From assembly GCA_943735955.1 (NCBI GenBank), contig OX030955.1:12861383-12925382 (forward strand): 64,000 nucleotides of DNA, read 5' to 3'. Positions 1 to 63,998 of the stretch are shown here, piece after piece (position 1 is the first letter of the stretch; every line of letters starts with the position of its first letter). This DNA comes from Piscicola geometra (lineage: Eukaryota > Annelida > Clitellata > Hirudinida > Piscicolidae). The notes under the pieces are model-generated. The model worked only from the letters and a program-made list of their open reading frames with translations. It searched no databases and was not told the DNA's origin. Made by a program: the position numbers and the translations under genes.

Positions 1-1040
1 TGCCGACTACTGCATCAACTACAGTGCCGACTACTGCATCGACAACAATGCCAACTACTGCATCAACTACAGTGCCAATTACTACATCGACAACAGTACC
101 GACTACTGCATCGACAACAGTGCCGACTACTGCATCAACAACAGTGCCGACTACTGCATCACCAACAGTGCCGACAACTGCATCGACAACAGTGCCGACT
201 ACTGCATCGACAACAGTGCTGAATACTGCATCAACAACAGTGCCGACTACTGCATCAACAGCAATGACGACTACTGCATCGACAACAGTGCCGACTACTG
301 CATCAACAACAGTGCCGACTACGGCATCGACAACAGTGCCGACCACTGCATTAACAACAGTGCCGACTAGTGCATCAACTACAGTGCCGACCACTGCATT
401 AACAACAGTGCCGACTAGTGCATCAACAACAGTGCTGACTACTGCATCAACAACAGTGCCGACTACTGCATCAACAACAGTGCCGACTACTGCATCAACA
501 ACAGTGCCGACTACTGCATCAACAACAGTGCCGACTACTGCATCAACAACAGTGCCGACTACTGCATCGACAACAGTGCCGACTATTGCATCAACTACAG
601 TGCCGACTACTGCATCAACAACAGTGCCGACTACTGCATCGACAACAGTGCCGACTATTGCATCAACTACAGTGCCGACTACTGCATCAACTACAGTGCC
701 GACTACTGCATCGACAACAATGCCAACTACTGCATTAACTACAGTGCCAATTACTACATCGACAACAGTACCGACTACTGCATCGACAACAGTGCCGACT
801 ACTGCATCAACAACAGTGCCGACTACTGCATCACCAACAGTGCCGACAACTGCATCGACAACAGTGCCGACTACTGCATCGACAACAGTGCTGAATACTG
901 CATCAACAACAGTGCCGACTACTGCATCAACAGCAATGACGACTACTGCATCGACAATAGTGCCGACTACTGCATCAACAACAGTGCCGACTACGGCATC
1001 GACAACAGTGCCGACCACTGCATTAACAACAATGCCGACT
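1..1040 (+). repeat. Related blocks at 672-bp and 3,720-bp offsets
   Basis: The opening bases match again at about 673 (28 units on) and at 3,721 (155 units on). The shared order of variants is an ATG CCA unit, a CCA ATT ACT ACA unit, a GTA CCG unit, a TCA CCA/ACC Thr variant, CTG AAT, an AAT GAC-bearing unit and an ACG GCA unit near 313, 985 and 4,033. These show that the first 4 kb carries at least three copies of one ancestral block. Confidence 0.75.
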
Positions 1041-4000
1041 AGTGCATCAACAGCAGTGACGACTACTGCATCAACAACAGTGCCGACTATTGCATCAACT
1101 ACAGTGCCAACTACTGCATCGACAACAGTGCCGACTACTGCATCGACAACAGTGCTGACTACTGCATCAACAACAATGCCGACTACTGCATCAACAACAG
1201 TGCCGACTACTGCATCAACAACAGTGCCGACTACTGCATCAACTACAGTGCCGACTACTGCATCAACAACAGTGCCGACTACTGCATCGACAACAGTGCC
1301 GACTATTGCATCAACTACAGTGCCGACTACTGCATCAACAACAGTGCCGACTACTGCATCGACAACAGTGCCGACTATTGCATCAACTACAGTGCCGACT
1401 ACTGCATCAACTACAGTGCCGACTACTGCATCAACAACAGTGCCGACTACTGCATCGACAACAATGCCAACTACTGCATCAACTACAGTGCCAATTACTA
1501 CATCGACAACAGTACCGACTACTGCATCGACAACAGTGCCGACTACTGCATCAACAACAGTGCCGACTACTGCATCAGCAACAGTGCCGACAACTGCATC
1601 GACAACAGTGCCGACTACTGCATCGACAACAGTGCTGAATACTGCATCAACAACAGTGCCAACTACTGCATCGACAAAAGTGCCGACCACTGCATCGACA
1701 ACAGTGCCGACTAGTGCATCAACAGCAGTGACGACTACTGCATCGACAACAGTGCCGACTTCTGCATCGACAACAGTGCCGACTACTGCATCAACCACAG
1801 TGCCGACTACTACATCGACAACAGTGCCGACTATTGCATCAACTATAGTGCCGACTACTGCATCAACAACAGTGCCGACTACTGAATCGACAACAGTGCC
1901 GACTATTGCATCAACTACAGTTCCGACTACTGCATCAACAACAGTGCCGACTACTGCATCGCCAGAAATGCCTACTACTGCATCAACTACAGTGCCAATT
2001 ACTACATCGACAACAGTGCCGACTACTGCATCGACAACAGTGCCGACTATTGCATCAACAACAGTGCCGACAACTGCTTCAACAACAGTGCCGACTACTG
2101 CATCGACAACAGTGCCGACCACTGCATCGACAACAGTGCCGACTACTGCATCGACAACAGTGCCGACTACTGCATCGACAACAGTGCCGACAACTGCATC
2201 AACAACAGTGCCGACTACTGCATCGACAACAGTGCCGACTACTGCATCGACAACAGTGTCGACTATTGCATCAACAACAGTGCCGAGTACTGCATCAACA
2301 ACAGTGCCGACTACTGCATCGACAACAGTGCCTACAACTGCTTCAACAACAGTGCCGACTACTGCATCGACAACAGTGCCGACCACTGCATCGACAACAG
2401 TGCCGACCACTGCATCGACAACAGTGCCGACTACTGCATCAACAGCAGTGACGACTATTGCATCAACAGCAGTGACGACTACTGCATCGACAACAGTGCC
2501 GACTACTGCATCAACAACAGTGCCGACTACTGCATCAACAACAGTGCCGACAACTGCATCGACAACAGTGCCGACTACTGCATCAACAACAGTGCCGACT
2601 ACTGCATCGACAACAGTGCCGACTATTGCATCAACTATAGTGCCGACTACTGCATCAACAACAGTGCTGACTACTGCATCAACAACAGTGCCGACTACTG
2701 CATCAACAACAGTGCCGACTACTGCATCAACTACAGTTCCGACTACTGCATCAACAACAGTGCCGACTACTGCATCGCCAGAAATGCCTACTACTGCATC
2801 AACTACAGTGCCAATTACTACATCGACAACAGTGCCGACTACTGCATCGACAACAGTGCCGACTATTGCATCAACAACAGTGCCGACAACTGCTTCAACA
2901 ACAGTGCCGACTACTGCATCGACAACAGTGCCGACCACTGCATCGACAACAGTGCCGACTACTGCATCGACAACAGTGCCGACTACTGCATCGACAACAG
3001 TGCCGACAACTGCATCAACAACAGTGCCGACTACTGCATCGACAACAGTGCCGACTACTGCATCGACAACAGTGTCGACTATTGCATCAACAACAGTGCC
3101 GAGTACTGCATCAACAACAGTGCCGACTACTGCATCGACAACAGTGCCTACAACTGCTTCAACAACAGTGCCGACTACTGCATCGACAACAGTGCCGACC
3201 ACTGCATCGACAACAGTGCCGACCACTGCATCGACAACAGTGCCGACTACTGCATCAACAGCAGTGACGACTATTGCATCAACAGCAGTGACGACTACTG
3301 CATCGACAACAGTGCCGACTACTGCATCAACAACAGTGCCGACTACTGCATCAACAACAGTGCCGACAACTGCATCGACAACAGTGCCGACTACTGCATC
3401 AACAACAGTGCCGACTACTGCATCGACAACAGTGCCGACTATTGCATCAACTATAGTGCCGACTACTGCATCAACAACAGTGCTGACTACTGCATCAACA
3501 ACAGTGCCGACTACTGCATCAACAACAGTGCCGACTACTGCATCAACAACAGTGCCGACTACTGCATCAACAACAGTGCCGACTACTGCATCAACAACAG
3601 TGCCGACTACTGCATCGACAACAGTGCCGACTATTGCATCAACTACAGTGCCGACTACTGCATCAACAACAGTGCCGACTACTGCATCGACAACAGTGCC
3701 GACTATTGCATCAACTACAGTGCCGACTACTGCATCAACTACAGTGCCGACTACTGCATCGACAACAATGCCAACTACTGCATCAACTACAGTGCCAATT
3801 ACTACATCGACAACAGTACCGACTACTGCATCGACAACAGTGCCGACTACTGCATCAACAACAGTGCCGACTACTGCATCACCAACAGTGCCGACAACTG
3901 CATCGACAACAGTGCCGACTACTGCATCGACAACAGTGCTGAATACTGCATCAACAACAGTGCCGACTACTGCATCAACAGCAATGACGACTACTGCATC

Positions 4001-7000
4001 GACAACAGTGCCGACTACTGCATCAACAACAGTGCCGACTACGGCATCGACAACAGTGCCGACCACTGCATTAACAACAGTGCCGACTAGTGCATCAACA
4101 GCAGTGACGACTACTGCATCAACAACAGTGCCGACTATTGCATCAACTACAGTGCCAACTACTGCATCGACAACAGTGCCGACCTCTGCATCGACAACAG
4201 TGCTGACTACTGCATCAACAACAGTGCCGACTACTGCATCAACAACAGTGCCGACTACTGCATCAACAACAGTGCCGACTACTGCATCAACAACAGTGCC
4301 GACTACTGCATCAACAACAGTGCCGACTACTGCATCGACAACAGTGCCGACTATTGCATCAACTACAGTGCCGACTACTGCATCAACAACAGTGCCGACT
4401 ACTGCATCGACAACAGTGCTGACTATTGCATCAACTACAGTGCCGACTACTGCATCAACTACAGTGCCGACTACTGCATCAACAACAGTGCCGACTACTG
4501 CATCGACAACAATGCCAACTACTGCATCAACTACAGTGCCAATTACTACATCGACAACAGTACCGACTACTGCATCGACAACAGTGCCGACTACTGCATC
4601 AACAACAGTGCCGACTACTGCATCAGCAACAGTGCCGACAACTGCATCGACAACAGTGCCGACTACTGCATCGACAACAGTGCTGAATACTGCATCAACA
4701 ACAGTGCCAACTACTGCATCGACAAAAGTGCCGACCACTGCATCGACAACAGTGCCGACTAGTGCATCAACAGCAGTGACGACTACTGCATCGACAACAG
4801 TGCCGACTACTGCATCAACAACAGTGCCGACTACTGCATCAACAACAGTGCCGACAACTGCATCGACAACAGTGCCGACTTCTGCATCGACAACAGTGCC
4901 GACTACTGCATCAACCACAGTGCCGACTACTACATCGACAACAGTGCCGACTATTGCATCAACTATAGTGCCGACTACTGCATCAACAACAGTGCCGACT
5001 ACTGAATCGACAACAGTGCCGACTATTGCATCAACTACAGTTCCGACTACTGCATCAACAACAGTGCCGACTACTGCATCGACAGAAATGCCTACTACTG
5101 CATCAACTACAGTGCCAATTACTACACCGACAACAGTGCCGACTACTGCATCGACAACAGTGCCGACTATTGCATCAACAACAGTGCCGACAACTGCTTC
5201 AAAAACAGTGCCGACTACTGCATCGACAACAGTGCCGACCACTGCATCGACAACAGTGCCGACTACTGCATCGACAACAGTGCCGACTACTGCATCGACA
5301 ACAGTGCCGACAACTGCATCAACAACAGTGCCGACTACTACATCGACAACAGTGCCGACTACTGCATCGACAACAGTGTCGACTATTGCATCAACAACAG
5401 TGCCGAGTACTGCATCAACAACAGTGCCGACTACTGCATCGACAACAGTGCCTACAACTGCTTCAACAACAGTGCTGACTACTGCATCGACAACAGTGCC
5501 GACCACTGCATCGACAACAGTGCCGACCACTGCATCGACAACAGTGCCGACTACTGCATCAACAGCAGTGACGACTATTGCATCAACAGCAGTGACGACT
5601 ACTGCATCGACAACAGTGCCGACTACTGCATCAACAACAGTGCCGACTACTGCATCAACAACAGTGCCGACAACTGCATCGACAACAGTGCCGACTTCTG
5701 CATCGACAACAGGGCCGACTACTGCATCAACAACAGTGCCGACTAGTGCATCGACAACAGTGCCGACTATTGCATCAACTATAGTGCCGACTACTGCATC
5801 AACAACAGTGCCGACTACTGCATCGACAACAGTGCCGACTATTGCATCAACTACAGCTCCGACTACTGCATCAACAACAGTGCTGACTACTGCATCGACA
5901 ACAGTGCCGACTAGTGCATCAACAGCAGTGACGACTACTGCATCGACAACAGTGCCGACTACTGCATCAACAACACTGCCGACAACTGCATCGACAACAG
6001 TGCCGACCACTGCATCGACAACAGTGCCGACTACTGCATCAACAGCAGTGACGACTATTGCATCAACAGCAGTGACGACTACTGCATCGACAACAGTGCC
6101 GACTACTGCATCAACAACAATGCCTACTACTGCATCAACTACAGTGCCAATTACTACATCGACAACAGTGCCGACTACTGCATCGACAACAGTGCCGACT
6201 ACTGCATCGACAACAGTGCCGACTACTGCATCGACAACAGTGCCGACTATTGCATCAACTACAGTGCCGACTACTGCATCAACAACAGTGCCGACTACTA
6301 CATCGACAACAATGCCTACTACTGCATCAACTACAGTGCCAATTACTACAACGACAACAGTGCCGACCACTGCATCGACAACAGTGCCGACTATTGCATC
6401 AACAGCAGTGACGACTACTGCATCGACAACAGTGCCGACTACTGCATCAACAACACTGCCGACAACTGCATCAACAACAGTGCCGACAACTGCATCGACA
6501 ACAGTGCCGACTATTGCATCAACAAAAGTACCGACCACTGCATCGACAACATTGCCGACTAGTGCATCAACAGCAGTGACGACTACTGCATCGACAACAG
6601 TGCCGACTACTGCATCAACAGCAGTGCCGACTATTGCATCAACAACAGTGCCGACTACTGCATCAACAACAGTGCCGACTACTGCATCAACAACAGTGCC
6701 GACTACTGCATCGACAACAGTGCCGACTATTGCATCAACAACAGTGCCGACTACTGCATCGACAAAAGTGCCGACTATTGCATCAACTACAGTGCCGACT
6801 ACTGCATCAACAACAGCGCCGACTACTGTATCGACAACAATGCCAACTACTGCATCAACTACAGTGCCAATTACAACATCGACAACAGTGCCGACTACTG
6901 CATCGACAACAGTGCCGACTACTGCATCGACAACAGTGTCGACTATTGCATCAACAACAGTGCCGAGTACTGCATCAACAACAGTGCCGACAACTGCTTC

Positions 7001-10000
7001 AACAACAGTGCTGAATACTGCATCGACAACAGTGCCGACTAGTGCATCAACAGCAGTGACGACTACTGCATCGACAACAGTGCCGACTACTGCATCGACA
7101 ACAGTGCCGACTACTGCATCAACAGCAGTGACGACTATTGCATCAACAGCAGTGACGACTACTGCATCGACAACAGTGCCGACAACTGCATCAACAACAA
7201 TGCCTACTACTGCACCAACTACAGTGCCAATTACTACATCGACAACTGTGCCGACTACTGCATCGACAACAGTGCCGACTACTGCATCGACAACAGTGCC
7301 GACTACTGCATCAACAGCAGTGACGACTATTGCATCAACAGCAGTGACGACTACTGCATCGACAACAGTGCCGACTACTGCATCAACAACAATGCCTACT
7401 ACTGCATCAACTACAGTGCCAATTACTACATCGACAACAGTGCCGACTACTGCATCGACAACAGTGCCGACTACTGCATCGACAACAGTGCCGACTACTG
7501 CATCGACAACAGTGCCGACTATTGCATCAACTACAGTGCCGACTACTGCATCGACAAAAGTGCCGACTATTGCATCAACTACAGTGCCGACTACTGCATC
7601 AACAACAGCGCCGACTACTGTATCGACAACAATGCCAACTACTGCATCAACTACAGTGCCAATTACAACATCGACAACAGTGCCGACTACTGCATCGACA
7701 ACAGTGCCGACTACTGCATCGACAACAGTGTCGACTATTGCATCAACAACAGTGCCGAGTACTGCATCAACAACAGTGCCGACAACTGCTTCAACAACAG
7801 TGCTGAATACTGCATCGACAACAGTGCCGACTAGTGCATCAACAGCAGTGACGACTACTGCATCGACAACAGTGCCGACTACTGCATCGACAACAGTGCC
7901 GACTACTGCATCAACAGCAGTGACGACTATTGCATCAACAGCAGTGACGACTACTGCATCGACAACAGTGCCGACAACTGCATCAACAACAATGCCTACT
8001 ACTGCACCAACTACAGTGCCAATTACTACATCGACAACTGTGCCGACTACTGCATCGACAACAGTGCCGACTACTGCATCGACAACAGTGCCGACTACTG
8101 CATCAACAGCAGTGACGACTATTGCATCAACAGCAGTGACGACTACTGCATCGACAACAGTGCCGACTACTGCATCAACAACAATGCCTACTACTGCATC
8201 AACTACAGTGCCAATTACTACATCGACAACAGTGCCGACTACTGCATCGACAACAGTGCCGACTACTGCATCGACAACAGTGCCGACTACTGCATCGACA
8301 ACAGTGCCGACTATTGCATCAACTACAGTGCCGACTACTGCATCAACAACAGTGCCGACTACTACATCGACAACAATGCCTACTACTGCATCAACTACAG
8401 TGCCAATTACTACAACGACAACAGTGTCGACCACTGCATCGACAACAGTGCCGACTATTGCATCAACAGCAGTGACGACTACTGCATCGACAACAGTGCC
8501 GACTACTGCATCAACAACACAGCTGACAACTGCATCAACAACAGTGCCGACTACTGCATCGACAACAGTGTCGACTATTGCATCAACAACAGTACCGACC
8601 ACTGCATCGACAACATTGCCGACTAGTGCATCAACAGCAGTGACTACTACTGCATCGACAACAGTGCCGACTACTGCATCAACAGCAGTGCCGACTATTG
8701 CATCAACAACAGTGCCAACTACTGCATCGACAACAGTGCCGACTACTGCATCGACAACAGTGCTGACTACTGCATCAACAACAGTGCCGACTACTGCATC
8801 AACAACAGTGCCGACTACTGCATCAACAACAGTGCCGACTACTGCATCGACAACAGTGCCGACTATTGCATCAACTACATTGCCGACTACTGCATTAACA
8901 ACAGTGCCGACTACTGCATCGACAACAGTGCCGACTATTGCATCAACTACAGTGCCGACTACTGCATCGACAACAGTGTCGACTATTGCATCAACAACAG
9001 TGCCGAGTACTGTATCGACAACAATGCCAACTACTGCATCAACTACAGTGCCAATTACAACATCGACAACAGTGCCGACTACTGCATCGACAACACAGCC
9101 GACAACTGCATCAACAACAGTGCCGACTACTGCATCGACAACATTGCCGACTAGTGCATCAACAGCAGTGACTACTACTGCATCGACAACAGTGCCGACT
9201 ACTGCATCAACAGCAGTGCCGACTATTGCATCAACAACAGTGCCAACTACTGCATCGACAACAGTGCCGACTACTGCATCGACAACAGTGCTGACTACTG
9301 CATCAACAACAGTGCCGACTACTGCATCAACAACAGTGCCGACTACTGCATCAACAACAGTGCCGACTACTGCATCGACAACAGTGCCGACTATTGCATC
9401 AACTACATTGCCGACTACTGCATCAACAACAGTGCCGACTACTGCATCGACAACAGTGCCGACTATTGCATCAACTACAGTGCCGACTACTGCATCGACA
9501 ACAGTGTCGACTATTGCATCAACAACAGTGCCGAGTACTGTATCGACAACAATGCCAACTACTGCATCAACTACAGTGCCAATTACAACATCGACAACAG
9601 TGCCGACTACTGCATTGACAACAGTGCCGACTACTGCATCGACAACAGTGTCGACTATTGCATCAACAACAGTGCCGAGTACTGCATCAACAACAGTGCC
9701 GACAACTGCTTCAACAACAGTGCTGACTACAGCATCGACAACAGTGCCGACTAGTGCATCAACAGCAGTGACGACTACTGCATCGACAACAGTGCCGACT
9801 ACTGCATCAACAACACTGCCGACAACTGCATCAACAACAGTGCCGACTACTGCATCAACAACAGTGCCTACAACTGCTTCAACAACAGTGCCGACTACTG
9901 CATCGACAAGAGTGCCGACTATTGCATCAACTACAGTGCCGACTTCTGCATCGACAACAGTGCCGACTACTGCATCAACAACAGTGCCGACTCCTGCATC

Positions 10001-13000
10001 GACAACAGTGCTGACTACTGCATCAACAACAGTGCCGACTACTGCATCGACAACAGTACCGACCACTGCATCGACAACATTGCCGACTAGTGCATCAACA
10101 GCAGTGACGACTACTGCATCGACAACAGTGCCGAATACTGCATCAACAACAGTGCCGACTATTGCATCAACTACAGTGCCAACTACTGCATCGACAACAG
10201 TGCCGACTACTGCATCAACAACAGTGCTGACTACTGCATCAACAACAGTGCCGACTACTGCATCAACAACAGTGCCGACTACTGCATCAACAACAGTGCC
10301 GACTACTGCATCGACAACAGTGCTGACTACTGCATCAACAACAGTGCCGACTACTGCATCAACAACAGTGCCGACTACTGCATCAACAACAGTGCCGACT
10401 ACTGCATCGACAACAGTGCCGACTATTGCATCAACTACAGTGCCGACTACTGCATCAACAACAGTGCCGACTACTGCATCGACAAGAGTGCCGACTATTG
10501 CATCAACTACAGTGCCGACTACTGCATCAACAACAGTGCCGACTACTGTATCGACAACAATGCCAACTACTGCATCAACTACAGTGCCAATTACAACATC
10601 GACAAAAGTGCCGACTACTGCATCGACAACAGTGCCGACTACTGCATCAACAACAGTGCCGACTACTGCATCGAGAACAGTGCTGACTACTGCATCGACA
10701 ACAGTGCCGACTATAGCATCAACTACAGTGCCGACTTCTGCATCGACAACAGTGCCGACTACTGCATCGACAACAGTGTCGACTATTGCATCAACAACAG
10801 TGCCGAGTACTGCATCAACAACAGTTCCGACAACTGCTTCAACAACAGTGCCGACTACTGCATCGACAACAGTGCTGACTACTGCATCGACAACAGTGCC
10901 GACTATAGCATCAACTACAGTGCCGACTTCTGCATCGACAACAGTGCCAACTACTGCATCAACAACAGTGCCGACTACTGCATCGACAACAGTGCCGACT
11001 ACTGCATCGACAACAGTGCTGACTACTGCATCGACAACAGTGCCGACTATAGCATCAACTACAGTGCCGACTTCTGCATCGACAACAGTGCCGACTACTG
11101 CATCGACAACAGTGCCGACTCCTGCATCGACAACAGTGCTGACTACTGCATCAACAACAGTGCCGACTACTGCATCGACAAAAGTACCGACCACTGCATC
11201 GACAACATTGCCGACTAGTCCATCAACAGCAGTGCCGACTACTGCATCGACAACAGTACCGACCACTGCATCGATAACATTGCCGACTAGTGCATCAACA
11301 ACAGTGCCAACTACTACATCGACAACAGTGCCGACCACTGCATTAACAACAGTGCCGACTACTGCATCGACAACAGTGCCGACCACTGCATCGACAACAG
11401 TGCCGACTACTGCATCGACAACAGTGCCGACAACTGCATCAACAACAGTGCCGACTACTGCATCGACAACAGTGCCGACAACTGCATCAACAACAGTGCC
11501 GACTACTGCATCGACAACAGTGCCGACTACTGCATCGAAAACAGTGTCGACTATTGCATCAACAACAGTGCCGAGTACTGCATCAACAACAGTGCCGACA
11601 ACTGCTTCAACAACAGTGCCGACTACTGCATCGACAACAGTGCCGACCACTGCATCGACAACAGTGCCGACTACTGCATCATCAGCAGTGACGACTACTG
11701 CATCGACAACAGTGCCGACTACTGCATCAACAGCAGTGACGACTACTGCATCGACAACAGTGCCGACTACTGCATCAACAACAGTGCCGACTACGGCATC
11801 GACAACAGTGCCGACCACTGCATTACCAACAGTGCCGACTACTGCATCGACAACAGTGCCGACTACTGCATCAACAACAGTGCCGACTACTGCATCGACA
11901 ACAGTGCTGACTACTGCATCGACAACAGTGCCGACTAGAGCATCAACTACAGTGCCGACTTCTGCATCGACAACAGTGCCGACTACTGCATCAACAACAG
12001 TGCCGACTCCTGCATCGAAAACAGTGCTGACTACTGCATCAACAACAGTGCCGACTACTGCATCGACAACAGTTCCGACCACTGCATCGACAACATTGCC
12101 GACTAGTGCATCAACAGCAGTGACGACTACTGCATCGACAACAGTGCCGACTACTGCATCAACAACAGTGCCGACTATTGCATCAACTACAGTGCCAACT
12201 ACTGCATCGACCACAGTGCCGACTACTGCATCGACAACAGTGCTGACTACTGCATCAACAACAGTGCCGACTACTGCATCAACAACAGTGCCGACTACTG
12301 CATCAACAACAGTGCCGACTACTGCATCGACAACAGTGCCGACTATTGCATCAACTACAGTGCCGACTACTGCATCAACAACAGTGCCGACTACTGCATC
12401 GACAACAGTGCCGACTATTGCATCAACTACAGTGCCGACTACTGCATCAACAACAGTGCCCACTACTGTATCGACAACAATGCCAACTACTGCATCAACT
12501 ACAGTGCCAATTACAACATCGACAAAAGTGCCGACTACTGCATCGACAGCAGTGCCGACTACTGCATCGACAACAGTGCCGACTACTGCATCAACAACAG
12601 TGCCGACTATTGCATCAACTACAGTGCCAACTACTGCATCGATAACAGTGCCGACTACTGCATCGACAACAGTGCTGACTACTGCATCAACGACAGTGCC
12701 GACTACTGCATCAACAACAGTGCCGACTACTGCATCAACAACAGTGCCGACTACTGCATCGACAACAGTGCCGACTACTGCATCAACAACAGTGCCGACT
12801 TTTGCATCAACTACAGTGCCAACTACTGCATCGACAACAGTGCCGACTACTGCATCGACAACAGTGCTGACTACTGCATCAACAACAGTGCCGACTACTG
12901 CATCAACAACAGTGCCGACTACTGCATCAACAACAGTGCCGACTACTGCATCGACAACAGTGCCGACTATTGCATCAACTACAGTGCCGACTACTGCATC

Positions 13001-52000: not shown

Positions 52001-55000
52001 GACAACAGTGCCGACTACTGCATCAACAGCAGTGACGACTACTGCATCGACAACAGTGCCGACTACTGCATCAACAAAAGTGCCGACTACTGCATCGACA
52101 ACAGTGCCGACTACTGCATCGACAACAGTGCCGACTACTACATCGACAACAGAGCCGACTACTGCATCAACAAAAGTGCCGACTACTGCATCGACAACAG
52201 TGCAAACTACTGCATCGACAACAGTGCCGACTACTACATCGACAACAGTGCCGACTATTGCATCAACTACAGTGCCGAATACTGCATCGACAACAGTGCC
52301 GACTACTGCATCGACAGCAGTGCTGACTACTGCATTAACAACAGTGCCGACCACTGCATCGACAACAGTGCCAACTAGTGCATCAACAGCAGTGACGACT
52401 ACTGCATCGACAACAGTGCCGACTACTGCATCAACAACAGTGCCGACTACTGCATCAACAACAGTGCCGACAACTGCATCGACAACAGTGCCGACTTCTG
52501 CATCGACAACAGTGCCGACTACTGCATCAACAACAGTGCCGACTACTGCATCGACAACAGTGCCGACTATTGCATCAACTACAGTGCCGACTACTGCATC
52601 AACAACAGTGCCGACTACTGCATCGACAACAATGCCTACTACTGCATCAACTACAGTGCCAATTACTACATCGACAACAGTGGCGACTACTGCATCGACA
52701 GCAGTGCTGACTACTGCATCAACAACAGTGCCGACCACTGCATCGACAACAGTGCCGACTAGTGCATCAACAGCAGTGACGACTACTGCATCGACAACAG
52801 TGCCGACTACTGCATCAACAACAGTGCCGACTACTGCATCAACAACAGTGCCAAAAACTGCATCGACAACAGTGCCGACTTCTGCATCGACAACAGTGCC
52901 GACTACTGCATCAACAACAGTGCCGACTACTGCATCGACAACAGTGCCGACTATTGCATCAACTACAGTGCCGACTACTGCATCAACAACAGTGCCGACT
53001 ACTGCATCGACAACAATGCCTACTACTGCATCAACTACAGTGCCAATTACTACATCGACAACAGTGCCGACTACTGCATCGACAACAGTGCCGACTATTG
53101 CATCAACAACAGTGCCAACAACTGCTTCAACAACAGTGCCGACTACTGCATCGACAACAGTGCCGACCACTGCATCGACAACAGTGCCGACTACTGCATC
53201 GACAACAGTGCTGACTACTGCATCGACAACAGTGCCGACAACTGCATCAACAACAATGCCGTCTACTGCATCGACAACAGGGCCGACTACTGCATCGATA
53301 ACAGTGTCGACTATTGCATCAACAACAGTGCCGACTACTGCATCGACAAAAGTGCCGACCACTGCATCGACAACAGTGCCGACTACTGCATCAACAGCAG
53401 TGATAACTACTGCGTCGACAACAGTGCCGACTACTGCATCAACAGCAGTGACGACTACTGCATCGACAACAGTGCCGACTACTGCATCAACAACAGTGCC
53501 GACTACTGCATCGACAACAGTGCCGACTACTGCATCGACAACAGTGCCGACTACTACATCGACAACAGTGCCGACTATTGCATCAACTACAGTGCCGACT
53601 ACTGCATTGACAACAGTGCCGACTACTGCATCGACAACAGTGCTGACTACTGCATCAACAACAGTGCCGACCACTGCATCGACAACAGTGCTGACTAGTG
53701 CATCAACAGCAGTGACGACTACTGCATCGACAACAGTGCCGACTACTGCATCAACAACAGTGCCAACTACTGCATCAACAACAGTGCCGACAACTCCATC
53801 GACAACAGTGCCGACTTCTGCATCGACAACAGTGCCGACTACTGCATCAACAACAGTGCCGACTACTGCATCGACAACAGTGCCGACTATTGCATCGACA
53901 ACAGTGCTGACTACTGCATCAACAACCGTGCCGACTACTGCATCAACAACAGTGCCGATTACTGCATCAACAACAGTGCCGACTACTGCATCAACAACAG
54001 TGCCGACTACTGCATCGACAACAGTGCCGACAACTGCATCAACAACAGTGCCGTCTACTGCATCGACAACAGGGCCGACTACTGCATCGACAACAGTGTC
54101 GACTATTGCATCAACTACAGTGCCGACTACTGCATCGACAACAGTGCCGACTACTGCATCGACAGCAGTGCTGACTACTGCATCAACAACAGTGCCGACC
54201 ACTGCATCGACAACAGTGCCGACTAGTGCATCAACAGCAGTGACGACTACTGCATCGACAACAGTGCCGACTACTGCATCAACAACAGTGCCGACTACTG
54301 CATCAACAACAGTGCCGACAACTGCATCGACAACAGTGCCGACTTCTGCATCGACAACAGTGCCGACTACTGCATCAACAACAGTGCCGACTACTGCATC
54401 GACAACAGTGCCGACTATTGCATCAACTACAGTGCCGACTACTGCATCAACAACAGTGCCGACTACTGCATCGACAACAGGGCCGACTACTGCATCGACA
54501 ACAGTGTCGACTATTGCATCAAAAACAGTGCCGAGTACTGCATCAACAACAGTGCTGACAACTGCTTCAACAACAGTGCCGACTACTGCATCGACAAAAG
54601 TGCCGACCACTGCATCGACAACAGTGCCGACTACTGCATCAACAGCAGTGACGACTACTGCATCGACAACAGTGCCGACTACTGCATCAACAAAAGTGCC
54701 GACTACTGCATCGACAACAGTGCCGACTACTGCATCGACAACAGTGCCGACTACTACATCGACAACAGAGCCGACTACTGCATCAACAAAAGTGCCGACT
54801 ACTGCATCGACAACAGTGCCGACTACTGCATCGACAACAGTGCCGACTACTACATCGACAACAGTGCCGACGATTGCATCAACTACAGTGCCGAATACTG
54901 CATCGACAACAGTGCCGACTACTGCATCGACAGCAGTGCTGACTACTGCATTAACAACAGTGCCGACCACTGCATCGACAACAGTGCCAACTAGTGCATC

Positions 55001-58000
55001 AACAGCAGTGACGACTACTGCATCGACAACAGTGCCGACTACTGCATCAACAACAGTGCCGACTACTGCATCAACAACAGTGCCAAAAACTGCATCGACA
55101 ACAGTGCCGACTTCTGCATCGACAACAGTGCCGACTACTGCATCAACAACAGTGCCGACAACTCCATCGACAACAGTGCCGACTTCTGCATCGACAACAG
55201 TGCCGACTACTGCATCAACAACAGTGCCGACTACTGCATCGACAACAGTGCCGACTATTGCATCGACAACAGTGCTGACTACTGCATCAACAACAGTGCC
55301 GACTACTGCATCAACAACAGTGCCGATTACTGCATCAACAACAGTGCCGACTACTGCATCAACAACAGTGCCGACTACTGCATCGACAACAGTGCCGACA
55401 ACTGCATCAACAACAGTGCCGTCTACTGCATCGACAACAGTGCCGACTACTGCATCGACAACAGTGCCGACAACTGCATCAACAACAGTGCCGACTACTG
55501 CATCGACAACAGGGCCGACTACTGCATCGACAAAAGTGCCGACCACTGCATCGACAACAGTGCCGACTACTGCATCAACAGCAGTGACGACTACTGCATC
55601 GACAACAGTGCCGACTACTGCATCAACAAAAGTGCCGACTACTGCATCGACAACAGTGCCGACTACTGCATCGACAACAGTGCCGACTACTACATCGACA
55701 ACAGAGCCGACTACTGCATCAACAAAAGTGCCGACTACTGCATCGACAACAGTGCCGACTACTGCATCGACAACAGTGCCGACTACTACATCGACAACAG
55801 TGCCGACTATTGCATCAACTACAGTGCCGAATACTGCATCGACAACAGTGCCGACTACTGCATCGACAGCAGTGCTGACTACTGCATTAACAACAGTGCC
55901 GACCACTGCATCGACAACAGTGCCAACTAGTGCATCAACAGCAGTGACGACTACAGCATCGACAACAGTGCCGACTACTGCATCAACAACAGTGCCGACT
56001 ACTGCATCAACAACAGTGCCAAAAACTGCATCGACAACAGTGCCGACTTCTGCATCGACAACAGTGCCGACTACTGCATCAACAACAGTGCCGACAACTC
56101 CATCGACAACAGTGCCGACTTCTGCATCGACAACAGTGCCGACTACTGCATCAACAACAGTGCCGACTACTGCATCGACAACAGTGCCGACTATTGCATC
56201 GACAACAGTGCTGACTACTGCATCAACAACAGTGCCGACTACTGCATCAACAACAGTGCCGATTACTGCATCAACAACAGTGCCGACTACTGCATCAACA
56301 ACAGTGCCGACTACTGCATCGACAACAGTGCCGACAACTGCATCAACAACAGTGCCGTCTACTGCATCGACAACAGGGCCGACTACTGCATCGACAACAG
56401 TGTCGACTATTGCATCAACTACAGTGCCGACTACTGCATCGACAACAGTGCCGACTACTGCATCGACAGCAGTGCTGACTACTGCATCAACAACAGTGCC
56501 GACCACTGCATCGACAACAGTGCCGACTAGTGCATCAACAGCAGTGACGACTACTGCATCGACAACAGTGCCGACTACTGCATCAACAACAGTGCCGACT
56601 ACTGCATCAACAACAGTGCCGACAACTGCATCGACAACAGTGCCGACTTCTGCATCGACAACAGTGCCGACTACTGCATCAACAACAGTGCCGACTACTG
56701 CATCGACAACAGTGCCGACTATTGCATCAACTACAGTGCCGACTACTGCATCAACAACAGTGCCGACTACTGCATCGACAACAGGGCCGACTACTGCATC
56801 GACAACAGTGTCGACTATTGCATCAAAAACAGTGCCGAGTACTGCATCAACAACAGTGCTGACAACTGCTTCAACAACAGTGCCGACTACTGCATCGACA
56901 AAAGTGTCGACCACTGCATCGACAACAGTGCCGACTACTGCATCAACAGCAGTGACGACTACTGCATCGACAACAGTGCCGACTACTGCATCAACAAAAG
57001 TGCCGACTACTGCATCGACAACAGTGCCGACTACTGCATCGACAACAGTGCCGACTACTACATCGACAACAGAGCCGACTACTGCATCAACAAAAGTGCC
57101 GACTACTGCATCGACAACAGTGCCGACTACTGCATCGACAACAGTGCCGACTACTACATCGACAACAGTGCCGACTATTGCATCAACTACAGTGCCGAAT
57201 ACTGCATCGACAACAGTGCCGACTACTGCATCGACAGCAGTGCTGACTACTGCATTAACAACAGTGCCGACCACTGCATCGACAACAGTGCCAACTAGTG
57301 CATCAACAGCAGTGACGACTACTGCATCGACAACAGTGCCGACTACTGCATCAACAACAGTGCCGACTACTGCATCAACAACAGTGCCAAAAACTGCATC
57401 GACAACAGTGCCGACTTCTGCATCGACAACAGTGCCGACTACTGCATCAACAACAGTGCCGACTACTGCATCGACAACAGTGCCGACTATTGCATCAACT
57501 ACAGTGCCGACTACTGCATCAACAACAGTGCCGACTACTGCATCGACAACAATGCCTACTACTGCATCAACTACAGTGCCAATTACTACATCGACAACAG
57601 TGCCGACTACTGCATCGACAACAGTGCCGACTATTGCATCAACAACAGTGCCAACAACTGCTTCAACAACAGTGCCGACTACTGCATCGACAACAGTGCC
57701 GACCACTGCATCGACAACAGTGCCGACTACTGCATCGACAACAGTGCTGACTACTGCATCGACAACAGTGCCGACAACTGCATCAACAACAGTGCCGTCT
57801 ACTGCATCGACAACAGGGCCGACTACTGCATCGATAACAGTGTCGACTATTGCATCAACAACAGTGCCGACTACTGCATCGACAAAAGTGCCGACCACTG
57901 CATCGACAACAGTGCCGACTACTGCATCAACAGCAGTGATAACTACTGCGTCGACAACAGTGCCGACTACTGCATCAACAGCAGTGACGACTACTGCATC

Positions 58001-61000
58001 GACAACAGTGCCGACTACTGCATCAACAACAGTGCCGACTACTGCATCGACAACAGTGCCGACTACTGCATCGACAACAGTGCCGACTACTACATCGACA
58101 ACAGTGCCGACTATTGCATCAACTACAGTGCCGACTACTGCATCGACAACAGTGCCGACTACTGCATCGACAACAGTGCTGACTACTGCATCAACAACAG
58201 TGCCGACCACTGCATCGACAACAGTGCTGACTAGTGCATCAACAGCAGTGACGACTACTGCATCGACAACAGTGCCGACTACTGCATCAACAACAGTGCC
58301 GACTACTGCATCAACAACAGTGCCGACAACTCCATCGACAACAGTGCCGACTTCTGCATCGACAACAGTGCCGACTACTGCATCAACAACAGTGCCGACT
58401 ACTGCATCGACAACAGTGCCGACTATTGCATCGACAACAGTGCTGACTACTGCATCAACAACAGTGCCGACTACTGCATCAACAACAGTGCCGATTACTG
58501 CATCAACAACAGTGCCGACTACTGCATCGACAACAATGCCGACAACTGCATCAACAACAGTGCGGTCTACTGCATCGACAACAGGGCCGACTACTGCATC
58601 GACAACAGTGCTGACTACTGCATCGACAACAGTGCCGACAACTGCATCAACAACAGTGCCGTCTACTGCATCGACAACAGGGCCGACTACTGCATCGATA
58701 ACAGTGTCGACTATTGCATCAACAACAGTGCCGACTACTGCATCGACAAAAGTGCCGACCACTGCATCGACAACAGTGCCGACTACTGCATCAACAGCAG
58801 TGATAACTACTGCGTCGACAACAGTGCCGACTACTGCATCAACAGCAGTGACGAATACTGCATCGACAACAGTGCCGACTACTGCATCAACAACAGTGCC
58901 GACAACTCCATCGACAACAGTGCCGACTTCTGCATCGACAACAGTGCCGACTACTGCATCAACAACAGTGCCGACTACTGCATCGACAACAGTGCCGACT
59001 ATTGCATCAACTACAGTGCCAATTACTACATCGACAACAGTGCCGACTACTGCATCGACAACAGTGCCGACTATTGCATCAACAACAGTGCCAACAACTG
59101 CTTCAACAACAGTGCCGACTACTGCATCGACAACAGTGCCGACCACTGCATCGACAACAGTGCCGACTACTGCATCGACAACAGTGCTGACTACTGCATC
59201 GACAACAGTGCCGACAACTGCATCAACAACAGTGCCGTCTACTGCATCGACAACAGGGCCGACTACTGCATCGATAACAGTGTCGACTATTGCATCAACA
59301 ACAGTGCCGACTACTGCATCGACAAAAGTGCCGACCACTGCATCGACAACAGTGCCGAATACTGCATCAACAGCAGTGATAACTACTGCGTCGACAACAG
59401 TGCCGACTACTGCATCAACAGCAGTGACGACTACTGCATCGACAACAGTGCCGACTACTGCATCAACAACAGTGCCGACTATTGCATCGACAACAGTGCC
59501 GACTACTGCATCGACAACAGTGCCGACTACTACATCGACAACAGTGCCGACTATTGCATCAACTACAGTGCCGACTACTGCATCGACAACAGTGCCGACT
59601 ACTGCATCGACAACAGTGCTGACTACTGCATCAACAACAGTGCCGACCACTGCATCGACAACAGTGCTGACTAGTGCATCAACAGCAGTGACGACTACTG
59701 CATCGACAACAGTGCCGACTACTGCATCAACAACAGTGCCGACTACTGCATCAACAACAGTGCCGACAACTCCATCGACAACAGTGCCGACTTCTGCATC
59801 GACAACAGTGCCGACTACTGCATCAACAACAGTGCCGACTACTGCATCGACAACAGTGCCGACTATTGCATCGACAACAGTGCTGACTACTGCATCAACA
59901 ACAGTGCCGACTACTGCATCAACAACAGTGCCGATTACTGCATCAACAACAGTGCCGACTACTGCATCGACAACAATGCCGACAACTGCATCAACAACAG
60001 TGCGGTCTACTGCATCGACAACAGGGCCGACTACTGCATCGACAACAGTGTCGACTAGTGCATCAACAACAGTGCCGACTACTGCATCGACAAAAGTGCC
60101 GACCACTGCATCGACAACAGTGCCGATTACTGCATCAACAGCAGTGACAACTACTGCATCGACAACAGTGCCGAATACTGCATCAACAGCAGTGACGACT
60201 ACTGCATCGACAACAGTGCCGACTACTGCATCAACAACAGTGCCGACTACTGCATCGACAACAGTGCCGACTACTGCATCAACAACAGTGCCAACTACTG
60301 CATCGACAACAGTGCCGATGATTGCATCGACAACAGTACTGACTACTGCATCAACAACCGTGCCGACTACTGCATCAACAGCAGTGACAACTACTGCATC
60401 GACAACAGTGCCGAATACTGCATCAACAGCAGTGACGACTACTGCATCGACAACAGTGCCGACTACTGCATCAACAACAGTGCCGACTACTGCATCGACA
60501 ACAGTGCCGACTACTGCATCGACAACAGTGCCGACTACTACATCGACAACAGTGCCGACTATTGCATCAACTACAGTGCCGACTACTGCATCGACAACAG
60601 TGCCGACAACTGCATCGACAACAGTGCTGACTACTGCATCGACAGAAGTGCCGACCACTGCATCGACAACAGTGCCGACTACTGCATCAACAGCAGTGAC
60701 AACTACTGCATCGACAACAGTGCCGACTTCTGCATCAACAGCAGTGCCGACTACTGCATCAACAACAGTGCCGACGACTGCATCGACAACAGTGCCGACT
60801 TCTGCATCGACAACAGTGCCGACTACTGCATCAACAACAGTGCCGACTACTGCATCGACAACAGTGCCGACTATTGCATCGACAACAGTACTGACTACTG
60901 CATCAACAACCGTGCCGACTACTGCATCAAAAACAATGCCGACTACTGCATCAACAACAGTGCCGACTACTGCATTAACAACAGTGCCGACTACTGCATC

Positions 61001-63998
61001 AACAACAGTGCCTACAACTGCATCGACAACAGTGCCGACTTCTGCATCGACAACAGTGCCGACTATTGCATCGACAACAGTGCCGACTACTGCATCAACT
61101 ACAGTGCCAATTACTACATCGACAACAGTGCCGACTACTGCATCGACAACAGTGCCGACTACTGCATCAACAACAGTGCCGACTACTGCATCAACAACAG
61201 TGCCGACAACTGCTTCAACAGTGCCGACTACTGCATCAACTACAGTGCCAATTACTACATCGACAACAGTGCCGACTACTGCATCGACAACAGTGCCGAC
61301 TACTGCATCAACTACAGTGCCGACTACTGCATCAACAACAGTGCCGACTACTGCATCAACAACAGTGCCGACAACTGCATCGACAACAGTGCCGACTTCT
61401 GCATCGACAACAGTGCCGACTACTGCATCAACAACAGTGCCGACTACTGCATCGACAACAGTGCCGACTACTGCATCGACAACAGTGCCGACTACTACAT
61501 CGACAACAGTGCCGACTATTGCATCAACTACAGTGCCGACCACTGCATCGACAACAGTGCCGACTAGTGCATCAACAGCAGTGACGACTACTGCATCGAC
61601 AACAGTGCCGACTACTGCATCAACAACAGTGCCGACTACTGCATCAACAACAGTGCCGACAACTGCATCGACAACAGTGCCGACTTCTGCATCGACAACA
61701 GTGCCGACAACTGCATCAACAACAGTGCCGACTACTGCATCGACAACAGTGCCGTCTATTGCATCAACTACAGTGCTGACTACTGCATCAACAACAGTGC
61801 CTTCTACTGCATTGACAACAATGCCTACTACTGCATCAACTACAGTGCCAATTACTACATCGACAACAGTGCCGACTACTGCATCGACAACAGTGCAGAC
61901 TATTGCATCAACAACAGTGCCGACAACTGCTTCAACAACAGTGCCGACTAGTGCATTGACAACAGTGCCGACCACTGCATCGACAACAGTGCCGACTACT
62001 GCATCGACAACAGTGCCGATTACTGCATCGACAACAGTGCCGACAACTGCATCAACAACAGTGCCGACTACTGCATCGACAACAGGGCCGACTACTGCAT
62101 CGACAACAGTGTCGACTATTGCATCAACAACAGTGACGACTACTGCATCGACAACAGTGCCGACTACTGCATCAACAACAGTGCCGACTACTGCATCAAC
62201 AACAGTGCCGACAACTGCATCGACAACAGTGCCGACTTCTGCATCGACAACAGTGCCGATTACTGCATCAACAACAGTGCCGACTACTGCATCGACAACA
62301 GTGCCGACTATTGCATCAACAACAGTGCCGACTACTGCATCGACAACAGTGCCGACTACTGCATCGACAACAGTGCCGACTACTACATCGACAACAGTGC
62401 CGACTATTGCATCAACTACAGTGCCGACCACTGCATCGACAACAGTGCCGACTAGTGCATCAACAGCAGTGACGACTACTGCATCGACAACAGTGCCGAC
62501 TATTGCATCAACAACAGTGCCGACTACTGCATCGACAACAGTGCCGACTACTGCATCGACAACAGTGCCGACTACTACATCGACAACAGTGCCGACTATT
62601 GCATCAACTACAGTGCCGACCACTGCATCGACAACAGTGCCGACTAGTGCATCAACAGCAGTGACGACTACTGCATCGACAACAGTGCCGACTAGTGCAT
62701 CAACAACAGTGCCGACTACTGCATCAACAACAGTGCCGACAACTGCATCGACAACAGTGCTGACTTCTGCATCGACAACAGTGCCGACAACTGCATCAAC
62801 AACAGTGCCGACTACTGCATCGACAACAGTGCCGTCTATTGCATCAACTACAGTGCTGACTACTGCATCAACAACAGTGCCTTCTACTGCATCGACAACA
62901 ATGCCTACTACTGCATCAACTACAGTGCCAATTACTACATCGACAACAGTGCCGACTACTGCATCGACAACAGTGCCGACTATTGCATCAACAACAGTGC
63001 CGACTACTGCATCGACAACAGTGCCGACTACTACATCGACAACAGTGCCGACTATTGCATCAACTACAGTGCCGACCACTGCATCGACAACAGTGCCGAC
63101 TAGTGCATCAACAGCAGTGACGACTACTGCATCGACAACAGTGCCGTCTATTGCATCAACTACTATGCTGACTACTGCATCAACAACAGTGCCTTCTACT
63201 GCATTGACAACAATGCCTACTACTGCATCAACTACAGTGCCAATTACTACATCGACAACAGTGCCGACTACTGCATCGACAACAGTGCCGACTATTGCAT
63301 CAACAACAGTGCCGACAACTGCTTCAACAACAGTGCCGACTAGTGCATTGACAACAGTGCCGACCACTGCATCGACAACAGTGCCGACTACTGCATCGAC
63401 AACAGTGCCGATTACTGCATCGACAACAGTGCCGACAACTGCATCAACAACAGTGCCGACTACTGCATCGACAACAGGGCCGACTACTGCATCGACAACA
63501 GTGTCGACTATTGCATCAACAACAGTGACGACTACTGCATCGACAACAGTGCCGACTACTGCATCAACAACAGTGCCGACTACTGCATCAACAACAGTGC
63601 CGACAACTGCATCGACAACAGTGCCGACTTCTGCATCGACAACAGTGCCGATTACTGCATCAACAACAGTGCCGACTACTGCATCGACAACAGTGCCGAC
63701 TATTGCATCAACAACAGTGCCGACTACTGCATCGACAACAGTGCCGACTACTGCATCGACAACAGTGCCGACTACTACATCGACAACAGTGCCGACTATT
63801 GCATCAACTACAGTGCCGACCACTGCATCGACAACAGTGCCGACTAGTGCATCAACAGCAGTGACGACTACTGCATCGACAACAGTGCCGACTAGTGCAT
63901 CAACAACAGTGCCGACTACTGCATCAACAACAGTGCCGACAACTGCATCGACAACAGTGCCGACTTCTGCATCGACAACAGTGCCGACAACTGCATCA
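3..63998 (+). CDS. Giant Thr/Ser/Pro-rich octapeptide-repeat protein, internal fragment (mucin-like), open at both ends
   Basis: Reading codons from base 3, I found no in-frame stop across 21,332 codons; the frame runs off both window edges, so start, signal peptide, any anchor and stop are not visible. The product is a repeat of consensus PTTASTTV. Thr is about 50%, with Ser, Pro, Ala and Val making up nearly all the rest. Common variants put Ile, Ser, Asn or Phe at repeat position 3, Leu at position 1, and Met, Leu or Gly at position 8. Lys, Glu, Arg and Gln are rare, and I saw no Cys, Tyr, Trp or His. Such PTS-rich repeats are typical of mucin O-glycosylation domains, so a secreted or surface gel, glue, cuticle or stalk role is inferred, not shown. 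Silent differences (TCA/TCG, ACA/ACT, CCG/CCA) dominate only in this frame. ATG codons occur in frame (first at 48-50) but are internal repeat residues. There is no T-rich pyrimidine tract for an intron acceptor, so a single mega-exon is likely. An assembly-inflated array or a bacterial Thr-rich adhesin are the alternatives. Confidence 0.82.
1921..3552 (+). repeat. Tandem duplication, period 816 bp (34 units)
   Basis: Copy 1 is about 1,921-2,736 and copy 2 about 2,737-3,552. Shared barcodes are a TTC/CCG-junction variant with GTT before CCG at 1,921 and 2,737, a rare Ser-Pro-Glu-Met unit (TCG CCA GAA ATG) near 1,957 and 2,773, and the GTG CCT ACA ACT variant. A related block recurs 3,120 bp (130 units) downstream of copy 1, near 5,026-5,480, where the Pro codon of the SPEM unit reads ACA instead. 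Confidence 0.85.
6745..8328 (+). repeat. Tandem duplication, period 792 bp (33 units)
   Basis: Copy 1 is 6,745-7,536 and copy 2 is 7,537-8,328. Both carry an ACA AAA Lys unit at the start, a GCG CCG Ala unit with GTA TCG, an unusual GCA CCA (Pro for Ser) unit near 7,214 and 8,006, and a GTG preceded by ACT near 7,249 and 8,041. By eye the two copies look identical or nearly so. Confidence 0.85.
8605..9612 (+). repeat. Tandem duplication, period 528 bp (22 units)
   Basis: The TTG CCG ACT AGT marker lies at 8,617 and 9,145, each followed by GTG ACT ACT ACT. A rare ACA TTG (Leu for Val) unit near 8,878 recurs near 9,406, and the GAG/GTA TCG pair recurs near 9,003 and 9,531. The second copy degrades after about 9,600. 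Confidence 0.8.
12001..14976 (+). repeat. Tandem duplication, period 1,488 bp (62 units)
   Basis: Copy 1 is about 12,001-13,488 and copy 2 about 13,489-14,976. Barcodes found in both are CCG ACT CCT GCA with TCG AAA, GTT CCG, a CCC ACT unit, a TCG ATA Ile unit, a TCA ACG unit, ACT TTT GCA (Phe), ACT GAA TCG (Glu) and TCA ATC. Only scattered substitutions separate the copies. Confidence 0.88.
14881..16272 (+). repeat. Tandem duplication, period 696 bp (29 units)
   Basis: Copy 1 is 14,881-15,576 and copy 2 is 15,577-16,272. The variant GCA TTG ACA ACA TTG CCG occurs at 15,061 and 15,757 and is a private barcode: the parental 1,488-bp block has TCG there. That orders the events, with the TTG change arising before this duplication but after the 1,488-bp one. 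Confidence 0.85.
15865..16920 (+). repeat. Overlapping tandem duplication, period 528 bp (22 units)
   Basis: The CCC ACT unit, TCG ACA AAA unit, GCA GTG unit and TCG ATA unit recur in the same order 528 bp apart (for example near 16,018 and 16,546). It overlaps the 696-bp duplication, so the two events are nested. A GTG CCT ACT ACT unit near 16,321 and 16,849 is shared. Confidence 0.8.
17641..18984 (+). repeat. Copy of the 13.5-14.9 kb block at 4,104-bp offset
   Basis: About 1.35 kb matches 13,537-14,880 at an offset of 171 units. Shared barcodes include the TCA ACA AAA unit near 18,112 (TCA where most relatives have TCG), the ATA and Phe units and the Glu unit. Private changes include AAT AGT near 17,692 in place of ACT AGT. 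Confidence 0.75.
18361..21460 (+). repeat. Block repeated at 22,057-25,150 (offset 3,696 bp, 154 units)
   Basis: About 3.1 kb of unit order matches 154 units downstream. Barcodes include ACT TTT GCA, the GTA GTG ACG marker, TCA AAA, ACT CTT GCA, TCA ACT TCA (Ser) near 19,384 and 23,080, ACT AAT GCA (Asn), and the Leu-Lys unit GCT TTG AAA near 20,437 and 24,133. Copies differ at single bases, for example GCG versus GCA before TTA near 19,452. Confidence 0.85.
23020..25370 (+). repeat. Block repeated at 27,580-29,930 (offset 4,560 bp, 190 units)
   Basis: Shared barcodes are the TCA ACT TCA unit, ACT AAT GCA, GCT TTG AAA near 24,133 and 28,693, the ACT GAA TCA unit near 23,651 and 28,211, and the ACA TCA GTG TCA pair near 24,642 and 29,202. 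The match spans about 2.35 kb with few differences. It is later than, and laid over, the 3,696-bp relation. Confidence 0.85.
23689..27960 (+). repeat. Abutting tandem duplication, period 2,136 bp (89 units)
   Basis: Copy 1 is about 23,689-25,824 and copy 2 about 25,825-27,960. Both carry the rare GTG CTT ACT unit (23,881 and 26,017), the GCT TTG AAA unit (24,133 and 26,269) and the ACA TCA GTG TCA pair. Copy 2 has a private TCC for TCG near 26,968, still Ser. This is one of the cleanest large duplications in the window. Confidence 0.88.
30601..31940 (+). repeat. Block repeated at 33,001-34,340 (offset 2,400 bp, 100 units)
   Basis: About 1.34 kb matches line for line, with one difference seen: ACT ATT near 31,830 versus ACA ATT near 34,231. 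Both contain CCG GCT ATT, TCA ACA ACA before CCA ATT, and GCA TTG/ACT ACA TTG units. The near identity implies a recent event or recent gene conversion. Confidence 0.85.
31720..33171 (+). repeat. Duplicated block, offset 816 bp (34 units)
   Basis: About 31,720-32,355 matches 32,536-33,171. Shared barcodes are TCA ACT TCA, ACT ACA TTG, ACT AAT GCA and ATG CCA ATT ACT (31,969 and 32,785). The period equals that of the duplication near 2-3.5 kb but the unit contents differ, so the shared length is probably coincidental. Confidence 0.75.
33165..35170 (+). repeat. Block repeated at 36,021-38,026 (offset 2,856 bp, 119 units)
   Basis: Two kilobases match with only a few differences, for example CCG AGT TCT near 34,921 against CCG ACT TCT near 37,777. 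The GCC TCA unit (GCA to GCC, silent) near 34,404 and 37,260 is a private shared mark, as are CCG GCT and the ACT ACA TTG unit. Confidence 0.85.
36313..45432 (+). repeat. Large abutting tandem duplication, about 4.56 kb per copy
   Basis: Copy 1 is about 36,313-40,896 and copy 2 about 40,897-45,432. The offset is 4,584 bp at the start, 4,560 from about 38.3 kb and 4,536 from about 39.7 kb, so copy 2 has lost two blocks of exactly one unit each. Shared marks are CCG GCT, GCC TCA, GTA CCG ACT AAT (39,051 and 43,611), ACC TCT TCA (39,611 and 44,147), GTC CCA ACC and TCA ATA AAA (40,288 and 44,824). Copy-specific changes include GTT TCA near 39,874 in copy 1 and CCA TCA near 43,572 in copy 2. Confidence 0.88.
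45577..46990 (+). repeat. Duplication, period 744 bp (31 units)
   Basis: About 45,577-46,260 matches 46,321-47,004. Both share CCG TCT ACT, ACA GGG CCG, GTG TCG and the GCA GTG CTG unit. Differences include GAG TCA near 45,612 (Glu) and GTG GCG near 46,777. Confidence 0.8.
46990..50812 (+). repeat. Four-copy higher-order repeat, about 960 bp (40 units)
   Basis: The TCG ACG ACA variant followed by ACT AGT lies at 47,473, 48,457, 49,417 and 50,377, giving spacings of 984, 960 and 960 bp. Each copy has TCA CTT ACA (Leu), TCA AAA GCA GTG, ACA GGG CCG, GTG TCG, TCA AAA ACA and ACA AAA GTG in the same order. The first interval is one unit longer. Copy-specific marks are GGA TCA near 48,036, GTC CCG near 49,610, GCA GAG ACG near 50,398 and CCC TCA near 50,715. 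Confidence 0.88.
52681..54000 (+). repeat. Block repeated at 57,217-58,536 (offset 4,536 bp, 189 units)
   Basis: Shared barcodes are CCA AAA ACT (52,851 and 57,387), CCA ACA ACT, TCG ATA ACA GTG TCG, GTG ATA ACT with GCG TCG (53,401 and 57,937), and CTG ACT AGT. Intervening blocks near 54.1-57.0 kb show a second relation at 2,304 bp (96 units), with GTG CTG ACA ACT at 54,553 and 56,857. Confidence 0.8.
57553..60040 (+). repeat. Tandem duplication, period 1,440 bp (60 units), second copy shorter
   Basis: Copy 1 is about 57,553-58,992 and copy 2 about 58,993-60,040. Both carry GTG ATA ACT with GCG TCG, CTG ACT AGT, ACT CCA TCG (Pro), ATG CCG ACA and the very rare GTG CGG TCT (Arg) unit at 58,561 and 60,001. 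Similarity stops just after the CGG unit. Confidence 0.85.
61201..61221 (+). repeat. The single 21-bp unit (in-frame loss of one Thr codon)
   Basis: This unit reads P-T-T-A-S-T-V: one of the two ACA Thr codons between Ser and Val is missing. It is the only unit of non-24 length I found. All downstream units are offset by 3 bp but remain in the same coding frame. Slippage between adjacent ACA codons is the simplest origin. Confidence 0.95.

Follow-up and report, generated by a model that had tools for sequence, protein, structure and literature searches.

The record-sized proteins of eukaryotes are PKZILLA-1, of about 45,000 residues, and titin, of about 35,000 residues. A bacterial protein of 85,804 residues has reportedly been predicted in a preprint. 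Human MUC12 has up to 23,080 residues and is encoded by the largest human exon (PMC13345508). Among the bacterial Omnitrophota, one giant open reading frame codes for 39,678 residues, 42 transmembrane helices being predicted for it, and peptides have been mapped to a giant ORF (PMC10066038).

Here we describe a locus of the leech Piscicola geometra. The analysis started from a 64,000-nucleotide stretch of contig OX030955.1 (positions 12861383-12925382; assembly GCA_943735955.1), below called the window. The COX1 of the same genome, on a contig of 15,135 bases and read with TGA as Trp and AGA as Ser, shares 97% identity with that of Codonobdella, a piscicolid leech from Lake Baikal, and 89% with Notostomum cyclostomum. 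Judging by the arrangement of sequence features, the window is very probably part of the repeat exon of a gene, present at a single locus, for a transmembrane mucin. Evenly poised is the further proposal that a single exon of about 1.18 Mb is translated without interruption. The chain would then have at least about 392,000 residues and, before glycosylation, a mass of about 38 MDa, and the protein, the mRNA and the coding exon would each be the largest known.

Results

Repeats and reading frames of the window

The entire window is occupied by a 24-bp tandem repeat (TRF rows 1-64000; 89% matches, 0% indels), and its frame +3 reads as (PTTASTTV)n, that is, in units of eight residues. The initial annotation, made on the window alone, had described a stop-free frame encoding 2.0 MDa of peptide and not bounded inside the window. 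Indeed, translation yields no stop and a computed mass of 2.04 MDa; with 100 kb added on each side, 88,000 of 88,000 codons are open, and on the whole contig the frame reaches the length given in Table 1. Serine and threonine constitute 59.8% of the window residues and proline 11.1%, as in the Thr/Ser/Pro-rich repeats of mucins. The mean divergence from the consensus unit is 7.0%, or about 1.7 changes per unit, in agreement with the one to three substitutions noted originally. The statement that every unit carries a serine codon TCA or TCG is nearly right: such a codon is present in 10,544 of the 10,998 complete units in the 264 kb formed by the window and its flanks. Weak higher-order periods vary along the array: in the window the best lags are 192 and 72 bp, whereas the left-hand flank of 100 kb gives 1,464 and 2,184 bp.

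Openness alone does not decide the strand, because frame -1 is also open through the window. The remaining four frames contain 403, 123, 2,662 and 1,323 stops.

Layout of the locus

The features of the locus are listed in Table 1; a contig coordinate is the window position plus 12,861,382. As the initial annotation had supposed, the ends lie beyond the window. Its frame is continued by a unique N-terminal stretch on one side and by a second repeat on the other, with the transmembrane helix and the tail past a scaffold gap.

Table 1. Features of the giant-exon locus and of a nearby control array (contig or window coordinates as indicated)
Feature	Coordinates	Strand	Remarks
Signal-peptide-like exon, 58 bp	contig 12512291-12512348	+	ATG, phase-1 end, GTATGT donor
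Opening of the big-exon frame, after TGA	contig 12513253	+	
K/E-rich unique region	contig, to about 12514660	+	
24-bp array	contig, about 12514663-13158333	+	about 26,800 units of 8 residues, about 644 kb
66-bp array	contig, from 13158334	+	about 8,040 units of 22 residues in all
Scaffold gap, inside the 66-bp array	contig 13184383-13184582		exactly 200 N
Unique region and transmembrane helix	contig, ending at donor after 13689438	+	
Candidate last exon, 29 bp	contig 13689566-13689594	+	
20-bp minisatellite	contig 13898385 to at least 13901500		stops in all six frames; 0.2 Mb downstream; small noncoding control
Part of giant repeat exon, PTTASTTV units, frame +3	window 3..63998	+	21,332 codons without a stop; whole frame open for 223,780 codons
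Loss of one codon (3 bp), frame kept	window 61216..61218	+	sole break of the 24-bp register in the 264,000 bases read
Antisense frame -1, few codons one step from a stop, read as noncoding	window 1..64000	-	0 stops in 21,333 codons; 7 stops in 264 kb

On the plus strand, one frame is open from the beginning of the big exon to the gap, and an open frame continues from the gap to the donor at the 3' end. The first leads without a stop from a lysine-rich stretch through the 24-bp repeats into the 66-bp repeat; the second, of 173,346 codons and with no stop inside, ends in the transmembrane helix. The two overlap, since the second extends upstream beyond the gap in another phase. Counted without the overlap, and summed across the 200-N gap where the phase changes, the assembled coding sequence amounts to about 392,000 codons, or about 38 MDa of protein, so that the original expectation of a protein ranking with the largest known was an understatement. 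Provided that the array is not spliced internally, both open frames agree with repeats encoded in one large exon, as in a transmembrane mucin.

The K/E-rich N-terminal stretch is non-repetitive and comprises 449 codons with no stops, whereas the two remaining frames on this strand contain 40 and 48; by composition, the probability that it is open by chance is about 9e-19. The 24-bp array passes in frame into the 66-bp repeat (ESTSVPTAVSTTVPTTVSMMTT), whose 22-residue unit consists of serine and threonine to 54.5%. Probes were stop-free in the frame of the window at 20 of 20 places in the 24-bp array and at 4 of 4 places in the 66-bp array before the gap, while after the gap all 14 probes were stop-free in one other phase. 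This switch of phase within the 66-bp array falls at exactly 200 N, which we take for a scaffold join whose true size is not given by the number of N's. The part of the 66-bp array sampled as letters (21,956 bases) has no stops in 7,306 codons. For its remainder the absence of stops rests on the open-frame figures, one or the other of which is carried by all matches listed (the best 150 of 7,878 candidates scored).

Both arrays are head-to-tail and together span about 1.17 Mb. Searched for across the whole genome (171,024,195 bases, 66 contigs), the exact unit patterns have 11,020 and 5,393 plus-strand copies, respectively, and none on the minus strand. The C-terminal end has one match in the genome (8 of 8 candidates scored), and the N-terminal end has at least one among the best 150 of 2,146 candidates.

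Ends of the gene

The short exon at the 5' end, located 0.9 kb upstream of the big exon, would encode MTLTRGILLLAGLLSLLSA from its ATG. The acceptor of the big exon, at 12513257, is phase-compatible and has a poor pyrimidine tract. Because of this tract, a signal peptide supplied by the MTLTRGILLLAGLLSLLSA exon through a phase-1 splice is a strong suggestion, not a result. The putative first intron contains a degenerate minisatellite with 5% indels (about 12512944-12513097). Upstream of the gene, at 12480000-12500499, there are stretches of CA-repeats and of His-codon-like CAT/CAC repeats.

At the 3' end, the 66-bp array is followed in the same frame by about 60 unique residues and then by LLLWYVGFVFCLLLLLLLLFITRQY. 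The in-frame C-terminal segment LLLWYVGFVFCLLLLLLLL, with a 19-residue mean hydropathy of 2.93, is a helix as judged by hydropathy alone, and it is followed by the short tail ITRQY. A GTGAGT donor immediately adjoins the last base of the big exon, and an acceptor is found at 13689566. From these sites we infer a 29-bp last exon that would give the tail RQYARETLEAEE, adding ARETLEAEE and a stop. AATAAA signals are present at 13689590 and 13689703. Further downstream, at about 13690000-13692000, visual inspection suggests pieces of a hAT-type or zinc-finger MYM-type transposase, interrupted by stops; at 13825000-13825499, all 500 of 500 bases are N.

Extension of the contig in both directions, proposed in the initial annotation as a way to find the start, signal peptide, stop and flanking domains, thus gave a signal-peptide-like exon, a helix and a candidate last exon, but the domains did not materialise: the 98 C-terminal and 450 N-terminal residues match no Pfam family at E up to 1. 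The scanned end pieces contain neither the SEA or EGF domains seen in many, not all, transmembrane mucins, nor the VWD and cystine-knot domains of gel-forming mucins. No homologues of the N-terminal piece were found at E 1e-5 among 7,993 candidates scored, and none of the C-terminal piece at E 1e-3 among 202 candidates. An invented Thr-rich query, a kind of query for which there is no positive control, gave no match.

The first 1,000 of the 21,332 window residues score 171.1 bits with Cornifin (SPRR, PF02389; cut-off 34.8) and 49.7 with Gp5_trimer_C (cut-off 30.9). Both identities were rejected as low-complexity matches, although the scores exceed the cut-offs. Cornifin repeats are rich in Pro, Gln, Cys and Lys. 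This make-up is not matched here, as Gln and Lys account for at most 0.4% each in 264 kb and Cys is absent among the residues listed there.

None of the titles listed in a literature survey reports this gene, nor is it mentioned in the available part of the genome paper (PMC11134150).

Avoidance of stop codons

The initial annotation had counted zero stops in about 2,667 chances, and had interpreted this as purifying selection on an intact protein. This number of chances is too high, because the units are copies of one another. We therefore counted events, an event being a stop with a distinct context of 30 bases on each side; such contexts only approximate independent events. In the 264 kb, the sense frame contains 11,791 codons one substitution away from a stop, and no stops. 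Per 1,000 one-step codons, the numbers of stop events in the other five frames are 1.95 (only two events), 5.16, 8.57, 27.8 and 49.1. Thus stops are avoided in the sense frame only, and the five other frames collect them, which is not the pattern of a noncoding satellite.

The same can be considered at the serine codons. There the change C>T is common (71 events before A and 37 before G), and neither C>A nor C>G occurs in the 10,544 TCA/TCG codons. The rates of these changes at four control positions (three preceding A, one preceding G), which are few and lie in other sequence context, lead to an expectation of 25.5 stop events at the mean control rate and 11.1 at the lowest one (Poisson P 8e-12 and 1.5e-5, respectively). 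Part of this deficit may be mutational, since C>G at the serine codon is missing even where the product would be Trp. A lone C>A event (two copies), giving Tyr, was observed among the 35 serine codons ending in T or C. For the 64-kb window by itself, proportional scaling gives an expectation of only about 3 to 6 stop events. Hence selection on an intact protein is supported by the event-based comparison with the five other frames (11 to 25 stops expected over 264 kb, none seen), whereas the window by itself makes a weaker case and the flanks are needed.

The third codon position is the most variable (0.168, versus 0.078 and 0.096 at the other two), which speaks for a coding frame. Other tests of selection discriminate little. 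The observed-to-expected ratios of synonymous and nonsynonymous changes are 1.09 and 0.92 in the sense frame and 1.09 and 0.93 in the antisense frame, a weak contrast that is not frame-specific. The single 3-bp loss in 264 kb of the 24-bp array stands amid 18,500 mismatches. However, the noncoding 20-bp control array also has no indels, in 1,501 bases with 61 mismatches, and all of the 100 places listed of 174 in it keep step; for this reason the scarcity of indels was not counted as evidence.

Discussion

Proposed mechanism and alternatives

If the mucin gene is translated throughout, the following scheme can be proposed. Firstly, the chain would enter the secretory pathway via the signal peptide, and its threonines and serines, 60% of the window residues, would be O-glycosylated. 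Secondly, the C-terminal helix would anchor the chain, making a bottle-brush about 0.1 mm long; the extended chain is calculated at about 98-141 micrometres (0.25-0.36 nm per residue). Such a bottle-brush might coat the surface or, after shedding, feed the slime, and by analogy either would be a natural role for a tethered mucin. Finally, unequal exchange may lengthen the array by entire units of 24 or 66 bp, a process that cannot shift the frame. The only anchor is encoded at the far 3' end, up to 392,000 codons further on. A chain ended by a stop anywhere upstream would lack it, so that the entire array would be visible to selection; stops would be removed along the whole length, and the gene would be kept open.

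One possibility, less probable than translation in full and yet a serious one, is that the mucin gene is real and no full-length chain is made. Transcription or translation may end early, or the array may be mostly spliced out, so that the ends and some repeats reach the protein. Indeed, the full chain would take about 22 h to translate at 5 residues per second, and its message about 10 h to transcribe at 2 kb per minute, both rates being assumed. On the other hand, an array that for the most part escapes translation would hardly account for the avoidance of stops in 264 kb or for the open frames of both repeats.

It is improbable that the locus is a noncoding satellite or minisatellite, kept open by composition and homogenisation and lying by chance between coding sequences. 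Such an origin would account for a head-to-tail array of over 1 Mb, for an antisense frame open through the window as well, and for small indels being as few as in the noncoding 20-bp array. However, it leaves unexplained why unique coding-like sequence continues in frame at both ends, why two repeat families are joined in frame, and why the avoidance of stops is confined to the sense frame.

An assembly artefact, with a real array much shorter and expanded or misjoined by the assembler, appears more improbable still. Near-identical arrays collapse more often than they expand in assemblies, which speaks against it. In its favour, the 200-N join falls within the 66-bp array, where neighbouring units are 97-99% alike in most probes. 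Because of this similarity, and because only samples of it were read (21,956 bases), this array may have been collapsed, and the length assembled for it is less certain. For the 24-bp array, 1.1% of start positions in 264 kb repeat at 1,500 bases, and there is no exact 3,000-base repeat. According to the genome paper, the assembly combines 76-fold HiFi coverage from 12-20 kb fragments with Hi-C scaffolding (PMC11134150). The 24-bp part should thus be resolvable with the published read lengths, which again argues against an artefact.

The chance that antisense frame -1 is the coding one is negligible. Its openness in the window reflects a scarcity of codons one substitution away from a stop. 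Of its 87,999 codons in 264 kb only 1,028 are of this kind, and even so it acquires seven stops there (two distinct-context events), on which it was rejected. The open unique sequence and the helix, too, belong to the plus strand.

Comparison with known systems

The preferred reading remains a transmembrane mucin gene. A product made in one piece would be several times the size of the largest proteins known, and translation in full would raise the upper limit of protein size about five- to tenfold. Each ribosome would need most of a day of continuous translation. Several limits would become testable: the keeping of frame by the ribosome, the handling of a 1.2 Mb exon by RNA polymerase and export, the handling of a 0.1 mm chain by the secretory pathway, and the way in which selection clears a megabase of stops. 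About 7% of a chromosome scaffold is occupied by this locus, which could escape gene prediction wherever repeats are masked or both ends of a gene are required.

Like satellite DNA, the locus consists of head-to-tail 24- and 66-bp units over about 1.17 Mb; unlike satellite DNA, it is stop-free, in frame with unique open sequence at both ends, and avoids stops in one frame only. Its predicted product would share record size among eukaryotic proteins with PKZILLA-1 and titin, but these are folded and multi-domain, whereas the predicted leech chain is made of low-complexity repeats and would be eight to eleven times longer. The Omnitrophota giant ORFs are likewise very long single ORFs with a proposed role in a surface coat, but they are bacterial, have 42 predicted helices in one case, and reach about a tenth of the leech length. 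The closest analogy is with the tethered mucins, human MUC12 and MUC4. The leech locus is similar to these in having Thr/Ser/Pro-rich tandem repeats in one large exon and a C-terminal transmembrane helix, and it may also have a signal peptide. In contrast to MUC12 and MUC4, its ends have no SEA or EGF domain in the scanned pieces and no detectable sequence relative, and its predicted product is about 17 times as long as that of the longest MUC12 allele. In architecture this product is a transmembrane mucin; its size is of a new order.
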